Positions 55,518-61,214 of a stretch of DNA of 64,000 nucleotides are shown in pieces. The stretch spans positions 1 to 64,000 of the IMG/VR virus record IMGVR_UViG_3300023174_000089. One strand, given 5' to 3'. Position 1 is the stretch's first letter; the number at the start of each line of letters is the position of its first letter. A model generated the notes under the pieces. That model did no database searches and was not told the origin of the DNA. It saw only the letters and a list, made by a program, of their open reading frames with translations. The translations under genes and the position numbers were made by a program. The DNA is from a virus.

Positions 55518-55546
55518 TTACTTCTCCTTTTGTGTGTTGTGTGTGT

Positions 55547-55571
55547 TATCAGCGAAATGTGTGTGCTGATA
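55547..55571 (-). promoter_or_regulatory. hairpin downstream of tmRNA coding piece
   Basis: TATCAGC (55547-55553) pairs with GCTGATA (55565-55571), with an 11-base loop. No T-tract on the minus strand, so probably a processing or stabilising element at the 3' end of the tmRNA transcript. Confidence 0.5.
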
Positions 55572-55630
55572 CATTATATAGGCCAGGTGATTCTGTTGCT
55601 AAGTTCACCTGGTGAAACTCCGCTTACCGT

Positions 55631-55663
55631 TTAGGCAGCAAGTGCAAACTTATTATCGTTAGC
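55631..55663 (-). other. tmRNA tag-peptide reading frame ANDNKFALAA-stop
   Basis: GCT AAC GAT AAT AAG TTT GCA CTT GCT GCC TAA on the minus strand. The ALAA end is the usual ClpXP-type degron and AND- starts are typical of proteobacterial tags. It follows an A/T-rich stretch (AAATTAAATTAAAC) as around known resume sites. Confidence 0.9.
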
Positions 55664-55770
55664 GTTTAATTTAATTTGCTTCTTCGGCCGAGTATCTTCA
55701 ACCCTAACGTCTTTAGCTTTGACGATTCTCCATTGTTCTAATTATTGCTATGTCGAATCTAGGCACCCCC

Positions 55771-55831
55771 ATCAGAAGTATATTGCCACATTTGTGTTTG
55801 CTACCAAGAACCTGGTTCGTCAATATACTTT
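55771..55831 (-). other. tmRNA intervening segment with 10-bp closing stem
   Basis: AAGTATATTG (55776-55785) and CAATATACTT (55821-55830) are perfect inverted repeats flanking the segment between the CCA end and the 5' G of the coding piece. They extend the acceptor helix in the precursor, as in known permuted pre-tmRNAs; the loop is removed to give two pieces. Confidence 0.85.
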
Positions 55832-55884
55832 TGGTGGAGGTGGTGGGAATCGCACCCACGTCCACAACAACTTTGAAACAACTT

Positions 55885-55992
55885 CTACGAATTTCCTAGA
55901 ATTAATAATGTTGCCATAACTAAAGCAACACCACCAATCCAATAATTAAATCTATTTACTTTTTTTTGTTCTACACAATCTTTACTAGGCAT
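55885..55992 (-). CDS. tiny single-pass membrane protein
   Basis: 35 residues from ATG at 55992 (MPSKDCVEQKKVNRFNYWIG), preceded by GGAAGGA. Basic N-terminus, then a hydrophobic helix WIGGVALVMATLLILG. The start overlaps the stop of the 42-residue gene upstream (TAATG), so the two are coupled. The stop lies at the very beginning of the tmRNA acceptor piece. Function unknown; may be envelope-targeted. A longer open frame upstream to 56106 is not credible because it overlaps the other gene. Confidence 0.7.
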   Translation of the reverse strand: MPSKDCVEQKKVNRFNYWIGGVALVMATLLILGNS

Positions 55993-56167: not shown

Positions 56168-56827
56168 TTAATATTTACCACTTTTCTCATAATATGAAAT
56201 GGCGTTGACTAGACCTGTGATGTGGTCCTCGGTCTTTTGTTTGAATACGATTGGATGGTTATTCTCAACGGCCATAATGATTACTAGGTCGTGGATAGGT
56301 TCACCTATCAACTCCTCATACATCAACGCATAGGCGCTTGTTTGCCAAAAATAATCTTCAATATCTTCATGGCTTTTAACTTTTTTGGATGTTTTGAAAT
56401 CAATTACCGAAAGCACACCATCAAATTCGGCAATACAATCTACACGACCTGCCATATTCAATTGTTTTGACCAAAGTGCCTGTTCTTGGTAATGAATGTT
56501 ATTAATACGATTCAGGTGTGGTTTAATTGATAAGAACATTTCATGTGCATCAGGCATCACATTACCCAAATCTTCATTATTCAAATATCGTTCACATAGT
56601 GTATGAACATTTGTACCACGAGAAGTTGCTTTCTTGGTAATTGCATTAGCAACATCATCACCTACTTTATTACGCCATGCTTGAAAGATGTGTTTCTTTT
56701 GAGCACCAATCACTGTAGTGACTGATGGTAATTTTGTACCATCAGGCAGTTTGTAGAATCGTCTACCATCAGGAAAAGTTTCTGATTGTAAATCTTGTAA
56801 TTGTTTTGGTGGGCAGTAATTAAACAT
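56168..56827 (-). CDS. PD-(D/E)XK nuclease (RecB-like exonuclease)
   Basis: 219 residues. Motif region: ALWSKQLNMAGRVDCIAEFDGVLSVIDFKTSKK, giving D...(I)DFKxxK, the PD-(D/E)XK core, with a preceding conserved E (CERYLNNE). TSRGTNVHTLCERY is the helical motif typical of phage RecB/Cas4-like nucleases, and FWQTSAYALMYEE follows. Found widely in T4-like cyanophages. Probable role in DNA degradation, repair or recombination. It overlaps the 2OG oxygenase gene by 8 bases. Confidence 0.88.
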   Translation of the reverse strand: MFNYCPPKQLQDLQSETFPDGRRFYKLPDGTKLPSVTTVIGAQKKHIFQAWRNKVGDDVANAITKKATSRGTNVHTLCERYLNNEDLGNVMPDAHEMFLSIKPHLNRINNIHYQEQALWSKQLNMAGRVDCIAEFDGVLSVIDFKTSKKVKSHEDIEDYFWQTSAYALMYEELIGEPIHDLVIIMAVENNHPIVFKQKTEDHITGLVNAISYYEKSGKY

Positions 56828-57599
56828 TTTTTTTCGTCAAAAACTTTTCTTTTAATCTATCAAATAATGCTATATCTTCTGGTGTAAGAGTAACAGCATC
56901 TACATTTTTTCTATATTCTTTTGCTTGATTCTCAACTTGAAAGATATTCCCATAATATTTGAAATTTTTGGTGATTTGCCTTGTGTCATAGGCATCCATA
57001 ATTATATGATAACGATCTTCATCTGAATCATTTCTAATTTGGTGCCACAAATTCACCCACAGAATATAAACTGAACCATCAGCTGGCATATGTAGATTTT
57101 CACCTTGGCAGATATGCACACATTTCTTATTTGTAATTAATGGAATATGAATTCTTGCCATATAGTTATTTGTGTCTGAATCTTTATGAACCAAAGATTT
57201 TGAATGTGCCTGTAAACAAGATACCCTTGCTCGTCTAGGATAAAACCCTAATGATTCCAAATCATCCAACACTTCTTTAATATAACCAACACATCCTGCT
57301 GTTGGATTTTTATGTTCAAATCCTTCTGCGACATTCATATATTTCATGGCTTTATAATTATATTGGCCATTTGGAAAAAATACATCATTTGTTTCTTTAT
57401 CATCAGAATGATAAACTTCCCAACCATCTCGCCAATCACCAGTTCTAGACAATAATGTCCAACCACCAAAGCCATGGTATTCTAGTGTTTCAAATTCTTC
57501 ACCTTGAATCTGTTGTTTACCAAGAGTGAATACATTATTCTCAACCTCTTTTCTCAATCGGTCGATATCAACTTTATAATCCAACTTTTCATACCACAT
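56820..57599 (-). CDS. 2OG-Fe(II) oxygenase, aspartyl/asparaginyl beta-hydroxylase-like
   Basis: 259 residues from ATG at 57599, which overlaps the upstream stop (TAATG) and has a GGAAAC site; a longer frame to 57632 is less likely. The cupin core is RVSCLQAHSKSLVHKDSDTNNYMARIHIPLITN, with H138 and D140 as HxD, and VNLWHQIRNDSDEDRYHIIMDAYD, with H186 and R196 as distal His and 2-oxoglutarate Arg. RIHIPL is typical of the Asp/Arg hydroxylase branch. Substrate unknown; protein hydroxylation is the family norm. It is part of the operon carrying the radical SAM gene. Confidence 0.85.
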   Translation of the reverse strand: MWYEKLDYKVDIDRLRKEVENNVFTLGKQQIQGEEFETLEYHGFGGWTLLSRTGDWRDGWEVYHSDDKETNDVFFPNGQYNYKAMKYMNVAEGFEHKNPTAGCVGYIKEVLDDLESLGFYPRRARVSCLQAHSKSLVHKDSDTNNYMARIHIPLITNKKCVHICQGENLHMPADGSVYILWVNLWHQIRNDSDEDRYHIIMDAYDTRQITKNFKYYGNIFQVENQAKEYRKNVDAVTLTPEDIALFDRLKEKFLTKKNV

Positions 57600-58162
57600 T
57601 ATAAGTTTCCTGTTTCTTTTAAAATTTGACACACATCTTGATAATAATACTGTGTACCTAGAGTAATGGCAAGCCTTTCACTCAAAACATTATTTGGTTT
57701 TACTGCGTGTGGTCGTGTTACATCAAGTAACCACACTTCATTATCTTTTGCGATGAATGATTCTGTTTTTTCCAAATCGTCCTCTTGGTAGATAAATCCA
57801 TTGGTTTGATTATCTATCTGATAGGTATTTGGTTGTTCATCTTTAAACTTATAAAACTGTGTTAAGCAATTTTCAGTTTTTATATAGAAGTTAATTGTTG
57901 AATTTATACCACTATCGGTGTGAGGAGGTATTGAATGGTTCACTTTCATTAAAGACATGAAGAAGTCTTTACGACATCTTTCCGGCAAAACAGAATATAT
58001 TTGTGGATGTAATAATGAATTCAAGTTTAAATATTGTATGCCTTTAAATTGGCCATCAATATTTACACCGTAAGATATTTGAACATCAAGTGGTTCATAA
58101 CCAGGAACAATGAAATTGTTTTTTAATTTAACAAAACTACTTCTTTGATTTCCATTCTTCAT
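57599..58162 (-). CDS. 2OG-Fe(II) oxygenase-like protein
   Basis: 187 residues. MKVNHSIPPHTDSGINSTINFYI gives H81-x-D83; the distal site is TRPHAVKPNNVLSERLAITLG with H152 and R163. The HxD...H...R pattern fits the double-stranded beta-helix of 2OG-Fe(II) oxygenases. It overlaps the next gene by one base (TAATG) and the upstream EF-hand gene by 26 bases. Substrate unknown. Such enzymes next to virion or host-modifying genes are frequent in cyanophages. Confidence 0.78.
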   Translation of the reverse strand: MKNGNQRSSFVKLKNNFIVPGYEPLDVQISYGVNIDGQFKGIQYLNLNSLLHPQIYSVLPERCRKDFFMSLMKVNHSIPPHTDSGINSTINFYIKTENCLTQFYKFKDEQPNTYQIDNQTNGFIYQEDDLEKTESFIAKDNEVWLLDVTRPHAVKPNNVLSERLAITLGTQYYYQDVCQILKETGNL

Positions 58163-58499
58163 ATTGTTTCACGATTTGACATTCATAATCCCAATTAATA
58201 CCTTCATGTGGATTATCCTTAGCGGCTTGCCAAGGTTTACCCAAAATATGTTCGAGAATAGGAATGCCAGGATGTAATATTTTTTCTAATACATCAGCAT
58301 AATCAGTAAACATTTGAAACAACCGCTCTTTATCGGGTTGTTGTAGATTTAAAATGTCGCTGTTCAATTGAGTATCGAAATATTTTACGATATGTTTACG
58401 ATATAACTCAATTTCTTCTTCTGTAACAATACCATCACGGTTGATGTCGGCGTCTGCTACACCATCGTTATTTAAATCAATATCTTTAATATCAGACAT
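58137..58499 (-). CDS. EF-hand-containing small protein
   Basis: 120 residues. The N-terminus MSDIKDIDLNNDGVADADINRDGIVTEEEIELY has two overlapping Ca-binding loops (DLNNDGVADAD and DINRDGIVTEEE), EF-hand or dockerin-like. The remainder is helical (FQMFTDYADVLEKILHPGIPILEHILGKPW) and ends EEWKSKK. It overlaps the Cys-rich gene by 8 bases. Calcium-binding virion or assembly proteins of this size occur in T4-like marine phages; role unknown. Confidence 0.8.
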   Translation of the reverse strand: MSDIKDIDLNNDGVADADINRDGIVTEEEIELYRKHIVKYFDTQLNSDILNLQQPDKERLFQMFTDYADVLEKILHPGIPILEHILGKPWQAAKDNPHEGINWDYECQIVKQYEEWKSKK

Positions 58500-59475
58500 T
58501 TTCTAATTTCCCCTGAAACAGTTTTTCTTTAAATTCTATTAATTTACTTAGATATAGAGCTGTGTAATAAGTAAAAAATACAAGAGCCCAAATTGTGTAT
58601 ACGGCCAAGACTTGTTGTTTTCTATTTGATTTTGGTTTTGGTGGTATATAACTGACCACTCTACAGATAACTGTACCAATTTTCATAATGATACGACCCA
58701 TGGTGTTATCTTGTTTCAAAACACCCATCTTATAAGCCATATGTTCAGACCAAGGTGTTCCAATCTTAACAGCCATTTCAGTTGCAACAATCTTTTGTTC
58801 AATTTTACGGCGTGATTCTTTTTTGATCCAGAACATAAAATCTGGACCTTTAGCATTCATCCATGATGTAACGATACGAGCCCAACGGATATAACCACGA
58901 TAAACCCTCTTATCTGTTTTACGTAACATCTGGCCATATGCCTGATCAGCTGCCCATATTGTAGAACTCATTAGGCCTTTATCATACAAATCAGCACAAA
59001 CGATCTTAGAACAGTTACATGCACAGTTACAATTAAATGTTGCTGAAGCTGCGGCGCCACAATTGTAGCCTACAGTTGCATTACAGTTACAATTATATCC
59101 AGAAGAACAGTTACAATTGGCTTGAAGATACGATTGTGTATCACAGTTTGTGCAATTTATACCAGAACAATTTGTGCACTGAGATTCAAAGGCACCAAAA
59201 GGTAAACACTGCTGACATTGAATGTTTCCACAGTTACAGTTACAGTTTGTGCAATTTGTAGGAGGACAATTGGTATTTGAACAGTTACCATTATCACAGT
59301 TTCCGTCCATATTTCTCTGATAGTATGCTTTATCTTTAAAAGCATCCATGTTTGGACTGGCTGGAGGATTCTTTAAATAACCATTTAAAAACTGCAAAGA
59401 TGCAGAATATGTTGCACCTAAACCTAGTTCGGTCGTTACATCAGATGTCGATATTTGGCCACTTGGTGTTGTCAT
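58492..59475 (-). CDS. Cys/Asn-rich protein with virion-type N-terminus and C-terminal membrane segment
   Basis: 327 residues. The first about 55 resemble phage tail/virion N-termini (MTTPSGQISTSDVTTELG ... AFKDKAYYQRN). Residues 58-160 contain 23 cysteines, most preceded by Asn (GNCSNTNC, TNCNCNCGN, YNCNCN, FNCNCACNC). Residues 165-290 are basic and helical. A hydrophobic segment near the end (VLAVYTIWALVFFTYYTALYL) could span a membrane. It has its own late promoter-like box and sits 30 bases downstream of a radical SAM/SPASM gene, which makes it the obvious candidate substrate. Metal binding through NC repeats is the alternative. Confidence 0.85.
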   Translation of the reverse strand: MTTPSGQISTSDVTTELGLGATYSASLQFLNGYLKNPPASPNMDAFKDKAYYQRNMDGNCDNGNCSNTNCPPTNCTNCNCNCGNIQCQQCLPFGAFESQCTNCSGINCTNCDTQSYLQANCNCSSGYNCNCNATVGYNCGAAASATFNCNCACNCSKIVCADLYDKGLMSSTIWAADQAYGQMLRKTDKRVYRGYIRWARIVTSWMNAKGPDFMFWIKKESRRKIEQKIVATEMAVKIGTPWSEHMAYKMGVLKQDNTMGRIIMKIGTVICRVVSYIPPKPKSNRKQQVLAVYTIWALVFFTYYTALYLSKLIEFKEKLFQGKLENV

Positions 59476-59502: not shown

Positions 59503-59510
59503 TATTTATG
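59503..59510 (-). promoter_or_regulatory. late promoter-like CATAAATA
   Basis: CATAAATA (7/8) on the minus strand overlaps the stop codon of the radical SAM gene. It lies 27 bases before the ATG of the Cys-rich gene, with GGACAG as ribosome site. Confidence 0.5.
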
Positions 59511-60951
59511 TTGTTTCCAACCGTGATTTTCCATATACTTCAATACCTTCTACCTGACCTATTTTTTCACTTACGACCTTGATGGGTATAACCTTTTTCT
59601 TTGGTTCCTCTTTGTGTTCATAGATTGTACCAAAAATATCTTGGCGTTCTAGGGGTAGACCTTCCGCCTTAATTAAAGTTGGAATGTAACCACCAGTAAT
59701 TTTCTCAATGGCCAAGGCAAACAATGGTACATTATCTGAATATGAGTTTGCACAAGATATATCCCAAAACTTTTCATCTAGGAACATACAAGCACCTTTA
59801 CATAGGTGTAAAACTGGACAACCGCTACATTCTTTACGATTACTCCAATGTGTAGAACTTTTGATTCGAACATTATCAAAATCATCTAGTGTTCCACTAT
59901 GGTGACTTTCACCATTTTTACCCATTTCTAAAGAACTTACGTTTTGACAGGTCATAACATTACCACGCAGGTCAACAGCAAGGGTGTGTTCATCATCCAT
60001 GCCACACTTTTGACCTAAGAATTTAGAATTTGTGTGTGTTAATACTGAACCAATAAACCCATCGATTTTGGCCAACTGGCCAAAGAATCCTATTTTACCT
60101 TGTGTGGTGAATATATCAGCAAATGCTGTTCTACGATATTCAAAGTGTTCTTGTTTTGTTTGTAATGAATTAACGATACCATCTTCATCATAAGCGTCAA
60201 CAATACCACCTTCACCCAATACAACATTTGGATCACCGGTTAGTTTAACAAACCATTCATAAATTTCTTTACGTGATTTGTTTTTCGAATTCATCATTGG
60301 GTTGAAACTAAATGATTTACCCAATCTACTCATCATACGGTGAAATCCAAGAATTCTTTTCTTGGCTTCTGGATCATCAAATGGATCTGGCCCACGAACT
60401 GATTGTCCTGGTCCATCATGTGATATTGATACGGAGAAATCCATCATCATCAACCAATCAATGATATCATCAGTTAGAATTGACCCGTTGGTAATGATAG
60501 AGAATTGTGGTTTTCTTTTCCAATCAGAAAACTTTTCTGCAATAGTTTCGGCCAAAGGTTTTAATGTTTTCCAATATACAAGTGGTTCACCACCCCAAAA
60601 CTCAACTCTTAAGCCAGACTGTTCATCAAATTCTAGTTTGTTAAATTTTTCCATAAAAGAATCGATATCTTTTTTGGATGTTTCTGGCATTCTTTCAACA
60701 AATTTCTGTGAACAATAATCGCAGGAGTAGTTACAACTCAAACCTAATTGAATTTTAATATGTTTAACTAATCTAGATTTTTTGAGTGGATTATTCTTGT
60801 CGAATGGGACATAAGGTTTTAAACCATGTGGTTGAATATTATTGTATTGTAATATGTTTCCATTTTCATCAGACAATATGTTGGTCATATTATCATAATA
60901 AAAAATCCTCTTATCGTCTTTTGACTTCTCGGTGTGTATTTCAAATAACAT
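59506..60951 (-). CDS. radical SAM / SPASM peptide maturase
   Basis: 481 residues. Cluster motif C73-NYS-C77-DY-C80 (CxxxCxxC). GGEP at 120-123, ITNGSIL at 153-159 and SISHDGPG at 176-182 are the SAM-binding and core motifs of anSME/peptide-maturase enzymes. The C-terminal half has a full SPASM set: C316, G330-x4-C335, then C375-x2-C378-x5-C384-x3-C388, and C400. These proteins hold three Fe-S clusters and modify peptides by radical chemistry (thioether links, formylglycine and related). The adjacent Cys-rich protein is the likely substrate. The start overlaps the preceding stop (TAATG). Confidence 0.93.
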   Translation of the reverse strand: MLFEIHTEKSKDDKRIFYYDNMTNILSDENGNILQYNNIQPHGLKPYVPFDKNNPLKKSRLVKHIKIQLGLSCNYSCDYCSQKFVERMPETSKKDIDSFMEKFNKLEFDEQSGLRVEFWGGEPLVYWKTLKPLAETIAEKFSDWKRKPQFSIITNGSILTDDIIDWLMMMDFSVSISHDGPGQSVRGPDPFDDPEAKKRILGFHRMMSRLGKSFSFNPMMNSKNKSRKEIYEWFVKLTGDPNVVLGEGGIVDAYDEDGIVNSLQTKQEHFEYRRTAFADIFTTQGKIGFFGQLAKIDGFIGSVLTHTNSKFLGQKCGMDDEHTLAVDLRGNVMTCQNVSSLEMGKNGESHHSGTLDDFDNVRIKSSTHWSNRKECSGCPVLHLCKGACMFLDEKFWDISCANSYSDNVPLFALAIEKITGGYIPTLIKAEGLPLERQDIFGTIYEHKEEPKKKVIPIKVVSEKIGQVEGIEVYGKSRLETT

Positions 60952-61214
60952 TATTTTTCCTGTAGTCCTTTAGTTGTTCTACTTCTCTTTGTTGTTTTAT
61001 ATATTCTATTAGTTCCTGTCGAACTCTTTCCTTGTTGTGATATTCGTAATATAGCCGCTGTTGTTTTGACATCATTCTTTTTTTGCTCATTAAAACTCCT
61101 ATCGTTATTATTGTATTTTGGAATTTTAGAAGCAGGTTCTACAGGATTAACTTTGCCATTATCTGACCTCCTGATATTAAGTAGATGGGGAATTTGACTA
61201 TTCACTGTTACCAT
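60951..61214 (-). CDS. small basic disordered phage protein
   Basis: 87 residues, rich in Lys, Asn, Ser and Thr (SQIPHLLNIRRSDNGKVNPVEPASKIP ... IYKTTKRSRTTKGLQEK). No domain recognised. Translationally coupled to the radical SAM gene (TAATG) and overlapping the upstream gene by 7 bases. Could be an accessory factor of the rSAM step, but similar small genes are scattered through T4-like phages. Confidence 0.7.
   Translation of the reverse strand: MVTVNSQIPHLLNIRRSDNGKVNPVEPASKIPKYNNNDRSFNEQKKNDVKTTAAILRISQQGKSSTGTNRIYKTTKRSRTTKGLQEK

Follow-up and report, generated by a model that had tools for sequence, protein, structure and literature searches.

The window analysed here, a 64,000-nucleotide stretch, belongs to a virus record of 114,873 bases from a freshwater phage and carries T4-like replication genes, namely those for a single-strand binding protein and a helicase loader. 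On its minus strand, a row of genes runs from 61214 to 56168 and encodes, in order, a small basic protein of 87 aa (60951..61214), a radical SAM/SPASM protein of 481 aa (rSAM; 59506..60951, phrog_1802), a 327-aa protein comprising an N-terminal domain, an Asn-Cys tract and a C-terminal domain termed NCct (the NC protein; 58492..59475), a 120-aa 'EF' protein from a helical core family adjoining NCct (58137..58499), two 2OG-Fe(II) oxygenase-like proteins, OX1 (187 aa, 57599..58162) and OX2 (56820..57599), and a PD-(D/E)XK exonuclease (56168..56827, phrog_298). As OX2 homologues begin M(W/F)YEKL, OX2 probably starts at the ATG at 57599, giving 259 aa, rather than at the GTG at 57632. The tight coupling in one direction from 61.2 to 56.2 kb described in the earlier note is borne out: the small/rSAM and OX1/OX2 pairs overlap by 1 nt at TAATG, NC/EF by 8 nt, EF/OX1 by 26 nt and OX2/nuclease by 8 nt, while rSAM and NC are separated by a 30-nt gap. 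That note had also placed the nuclease in the row of shared function; we take this phrog_298 exonuclease to be phage backbone, outside the cassette, because it comes after the cassette in 19 of the 26 loci with enough room to show it. In L078, the small basic protein gene is also found upstream of an NC/rSAM pair that comes without oxygenases. The row in the window is closely followed downstream by a permuted tmRNA gene (55540-55924, minus strand; RF04321, 112 bits), for which ARAGORN gives the tag ANDNKFALAA.

The two tandem HxD...H...R oxygenase-like genes noted earlier hold up on comparison with their relatives, as H81, D83, H152 and R163 are invariant in 30 homologues of OX1 (23-51% identical to it), and H149, D151, H197 and R207 (numbering from the longer GTG reading frame) in 21 homologues of OX2. 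OX1 falls outside every curated Pfam 2OG family: the window protein matches no profile, one of its 30 homologues matches PF03171 at no better than E 0.008, and an OX1 profile gives chance-level matches only against PDB sequences. Its AlphaFold2 model is a double-stranded beta-helix (DSBH; pLDDT 94.5) whose top VIA matches listed are mostly 2OG oxygenases. The best structural matches listed are the 2OG protein/amino-acid hydroxylases YcfD (Z 10.2, rmsd 3.5 over 154), P3H, P4H and PHD2, with AlkB also among the matches. The HxD...H motif with its Arg and the modelled DSBH fold thus place OX1, as a predicted member, in the 2OG-Fe(II) oxygenase superfamily.

OX2 is of the Asp_Arg_Hydrox type (PF05118), scoring 40.5 bits against a cut-off of 22.6, and the profile matches all of its homologues (21/21 at E <= 0.001); a tblastn search of named phages gave no direct match to the window protein. 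Among proteins of solved structure, it is closest in sequence to a nucleoside-antibiotic beta-hydroxylase and a proline hydroxylase, and PF05118 also holds enzymes acting on small molecules and lipid A, with LpxO weakly matching three members. OX2 resembles the aspartyl/asparaginyl beta-hydroxylase family in profile score and in its HxD...H...R residues, but the iron site of animal AspH is formed by two His residues whereas OX2 keeps HxD, so the substrate cannot be read from the family name. Among phages, AspH-type genes are reported as core in pelagimyophages (PMC7029224), and the PF05118 family is reported in Limnohabitans phage DC33 (PMC12195039) and in cyanophages (PMC3037559). The available portions of these sources name no protein substrate for the phage members, whereas OX2 here shares a fixed operon with rSAM and an Asn-Cys protein.

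In rSAM, the C73xxxC77xxC80 motif and the SPASM-region cysteines are invariant across 23 homologues, and the protein exceeds the threshold of the SPASM profile TIGR04085 (33.9 vs 27 bits). Its best matches in NCBIfam and the PDB are peptide-modifying rSAM enzymes, several of them thioether-forming, and it shares CxxxCxxC and SPASM cysteines with the peptide maturases of the PapB, QhpD and CteB types. Unlike these, it scores far under the equivalog cut-offs of the best-matching maturase families, including that for PapB-type ranthipeptide maturases (NF047865, 77.1 vs 340 bits), and its presumed substrate is not a short precursor but a structural protein of ~300 aa with further domains. An inspection of the annotation around the rSAM gene of Campylobacter CPt10 did not find a related cassette. 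The NC protein carries its Asn-Cys tract to about residue 155, with several Asn-Cys pairs nearly invariant, followed by NCct (residues ~157-327), which has a hydrophobic stretch close to its end. A search of PHROGs with this protein gave no convincing match. Set against the hallmarks of a RiPP precursor, a short peptide with a leader and a cleaved core, it is 327 aa long and bears a C-terminal domain. The EF-hand assignment made earlier for the neighbouring gene did not survive: PF00036 scores 14.5 bits, below its 25.4 cut-off, and the DxNxDG loop, modelled at low confidence and lying in a sporadic N-terminal tail, is present in 5 of 28 homologues, whose common part is a helical core. We have accordingly dropped an EF-hand role, given the sporadic loop.

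The row is kept well beyond the window. Across 80 viral loci found with rSAM and 39 found with OX2, the common order is rSAM, NC, one or two 'EF' genes, an optional 2OG oxygenase (c2), one or two OX1 genes and OX2, and this order is maintained in different phage backbones, with desaturase-like proteins (c23, PF00487) and a B12-binding rSAM (c25) as further optional members. The relatives thus indicate that the row would travel between different phages as a unit. In some backbones, the cassette is flanked by virion, central-fibre-J-like or lysis genes. The optional c2 enzyme (PF13759, 2OG-FeII_Oxy_5; phrog_81) belongs to a 2OG family other than those of OX1 and OX2 and is absent from the window's own row, but forms a third oxygenase in many cassettes. 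It also adjoins rSAM in 26 of 79 prophage loci, where 25 of 27 matches lie within -2.5 to +2 kb of rSAM and all are on the rSAM strand, which supports the combination of a 2OG oxygenase, rSAM and a Cys tract as a recurring one. In L118 (2196-6801), as read from sequence only, an rSAM gene is followed by genes for a FAD-dependent tryptophan halogenase-like protein, two 2OG oxygenases and a sulfotransferase-like protein. Three other phage contigs without an rSAM of the cassette type (L116, L331 and L334) hold 2OG-oxygenase-like arrays and/or several desaturase-like membrane proteins, with Asn-synthase-like genes in L331 as well, these assignments being in part readings of sequence alone.

To relate the oxygenases to the NC protein, we compared 78 distinct copies of NCct, 71 joined to an Asn-Cys tract and seven to poly-Gly, poly-Pro or other tracts. 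The proposed co-occurrence of both oxygenases with the NC-repeat protein was confirmed, in that rSAM, OX1 and OX2 all lie alongside 64 of the 71 proteins with Asn-Cys tract and NCct, the remaining seven coming from truncated loci, which are short or run into a contig end. The fetched flanks of the seven NCct proteins with other tracts hold neither rSAM nor OX1 nor OX2; one of these loci spans only 3.5 kb, and over 24 kb of that phage the annotated genes tested gave no match. In such settings, NCct forms the C-terminus of Gly-rich tail-region or fibre-neighbour proteins, as in contig G003, where it ends Gly-rich tail-region proteins and an EF-core gene follows each copy. In gp028 of Synechococcus phage SynMITS9220M01 (L204, 10669-12519), about 35 prolines and eight arginines precede NCct.

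The converse arrangement is seen in prophages, where a strict Asn-Cys pattern occurs on the rSAM strand in 58 of 79 rSAM loci vs 6 of 79 on the other strand. Most of these 79 loci lie beside Asn-Cys tracts and none has OX1 or OX2 nearby; the rSAM relatives beside Asn-Cys tracts in prophages and phages likewise lack EF and NCct. In three loci, L078, L119 and L120, the N-terminal domain and the spacing of the Asn-Cys pairs are the same but NCct is lacking, and no OX1 or OX2 was found in the searched record or genome. In the complete Achromobacter phage JWF, rSAM accompanies a fusion of an Asn-Cys tract with a Hint domain, and no match was obtained for OX1, OX2 or c2. Since pairs of Asn-Cys tract and rSAM are common without OX1 and OX2, the Asn-Cys signature is independent of these enzymes. 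The local OX1 and OX2 pair, on the other hand, depends on tract and NCct together, as a correlation across related phages. Two stricter rules fail: that the oxygenases track the Asn-Cys repeats is ruled out by the prophage loci, L078, L119, L120 and JWF, and that they track NCct by the NCct proteins with other tracts. Hint-like starts (CFPAGT/CFPAAT...) fused directly or nearly so to an Asn-Cys tract occur in L001, L185, L186, L187, L190 and L193, a set made up of phage JWF and several prophage loci, and autoprocessing is possible in such fusions.

Oxygenases without the Cys-rich gene had been named in the earlier note as the finding that would speak against its proposal, and they do occur in part. 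We gave weight here to long contigs and complete genomes only, because short contigs can hide genes, and the contig scan covered a subset. Twelve contigs of 14-167 kb carry OX1 but no rSAM, two of them with NCct (G024/G025); the rSAM profile, which did detect G001 as a positive control, has no match in the 12. OX1 is also present in the complete Roseobacter phage CRP-3, where rSAM, NC tract and NCct are all missing and the homologue (L347, 2563-3120) has thymidylate synthase on one side and primase on the other. For OX2, copies without rSAM lie in L113, L114/G003 and L294/G018, with G003 also encoding two NCct proteins with poly-Gly tracts. In the OX1 tree, in which two short-contig rows (L287 and L297) are labelled NC with no NC gene in view, orphan copies are mixed among cassette copies with four changes, as expected for exchangeable tailoring enzymes.

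On balance, we favour OX1 and OX2 being Fe(II)/2-oxoglutarate hydroxylase-type tailoring enzymes encoded in a mobile phage cassette whose target would be a single structural (tail) protein. The motifs, the OX2 family, the OX1 DSBH model, the gene coupling, the kept neighbourhood and the dependence on tract plus NCct point this way, as does the position of the cassette in some backbones between tail-fibre-J-like or virion genes on one side and lysis genes on the other. Counting against it are the copies of each oxygenase without rSAM or tract, the interspersed orphan OX1 branches, the small-molecule and lipid A enzymes of PF05118 and AlkB among the structural matches of OX1. The suggestion that co-translation reflects shared function is supported for the oxygenases with rSAM and the NC protein, linked in different backbones, and would not extend to the nuclease, taken as backbone. 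We infer the NC-NCct protein as the candidate substrate of OX1 and OX2, bearing the residues that they would oxidise, and a virion location for the modified protein. The rSAM/SPASM enzyme would act on the Asn-Cys tract, probably forming Cys-linked thioethers, NCct and the small helical partner would form the C-terminal end of the tail protein, and further oxidations would come from OX1 and OX2, often together with another 2OG oxygenase, with a B12-type rSAM or with membrane enzymes of the desaturase-like kind.

Within this reading, OX1 and OX2 may oxidise NCct or its junction with the tract rather than the repeats, a sub-case of tail-protein tailoring that we consider unlikely: an NC domain without NCct comes without OX1 and OX2 (L078, L119, L120), and OX2 in G003 and OX1 in G024/G025 are paired with NCct where rSAM is missing, but most poly-Gly or poly-Pro NCct proteins lack both enzymes in the whole contig, and these pairings are few and come from records that may be fragments. 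A rather unlikely alternative is that the two enzymes act elsewhere, on the helical partner, another fibre, a host factor, a nucleotide or a lipid, having been gathered among many exchangeable 2OG oxygenases. Densely packed 2OG-like genes with neither rSAM nor tract (L116, L331, L334), the OX1 setting in CRP-3, a published cyanophage in which 24 ORFs encode 2OG oxygenases (PMC9602691) and the AspH-type genes reported as core in pelagimyophages (PMC7029224) are in line with this, yet both genes occur together in every long-enough locus with NC tract and NCct, in different backbones, and are locally missing where NCct follows other tracts. The original idea that OX2 (and OX1) beta-hydroxylate Asn of the Asn-Cys repeats, another sub-case whose probability overlaps with that of tail-protein tailoring, now seems improbable, since the repeats retain Asn where both enzymes are absent (L078, L119, L120), none of the 79 prophage loci has either enzyme nearby and the HxD of OX2 departs from the AspH site, even though OX2 is a PF05118 protein, several Asn-Cys pairs are nearly invariant and 77% of tract cysteines follow an Asn in the NC plus NCct set vs 63% in prophage tracts.

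Returning to the tailoring of one tail protein by a mobile cassette, we tentatively extend it to a phage-encoded assembly line, in which rSAM cross-linking of a virion protein's Asn-Cys tract would be followed by two to four 2OG oxidations, with B12-rSAM or desaturase-type steps added in some phages, to yield a chemically hardened or host-binding fibre tip through RiPP-like chemistry on a structural protein. Our search of the open-licence literature found no report of a phage tail protein modified by an rSAM enzyme or an oxygenase. AspH-type and other 2OG genes are reported from pelagimyophages, from cyanophages and from a Limnohabitans phage (PMC7029224, PMC3037559, PMC9602691, PMC12195039), with no protein target given in the available portions of these papers; where a role is proposed, it concerns 2OG levels or the repair of DNA (PMC9602691, PMC3037559). 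Aquatic T4-like phages commonly encode 2OG oxygenases, for two of which the cassette offers a candidate protein target, tying OX1 and OX2 to an rSAM family whose genes adjoin Asn-Cys tracts in both phages and prophages. Phages would then, if this is true, build part of their particle by enzymatic cross-linking and hydroxylation.
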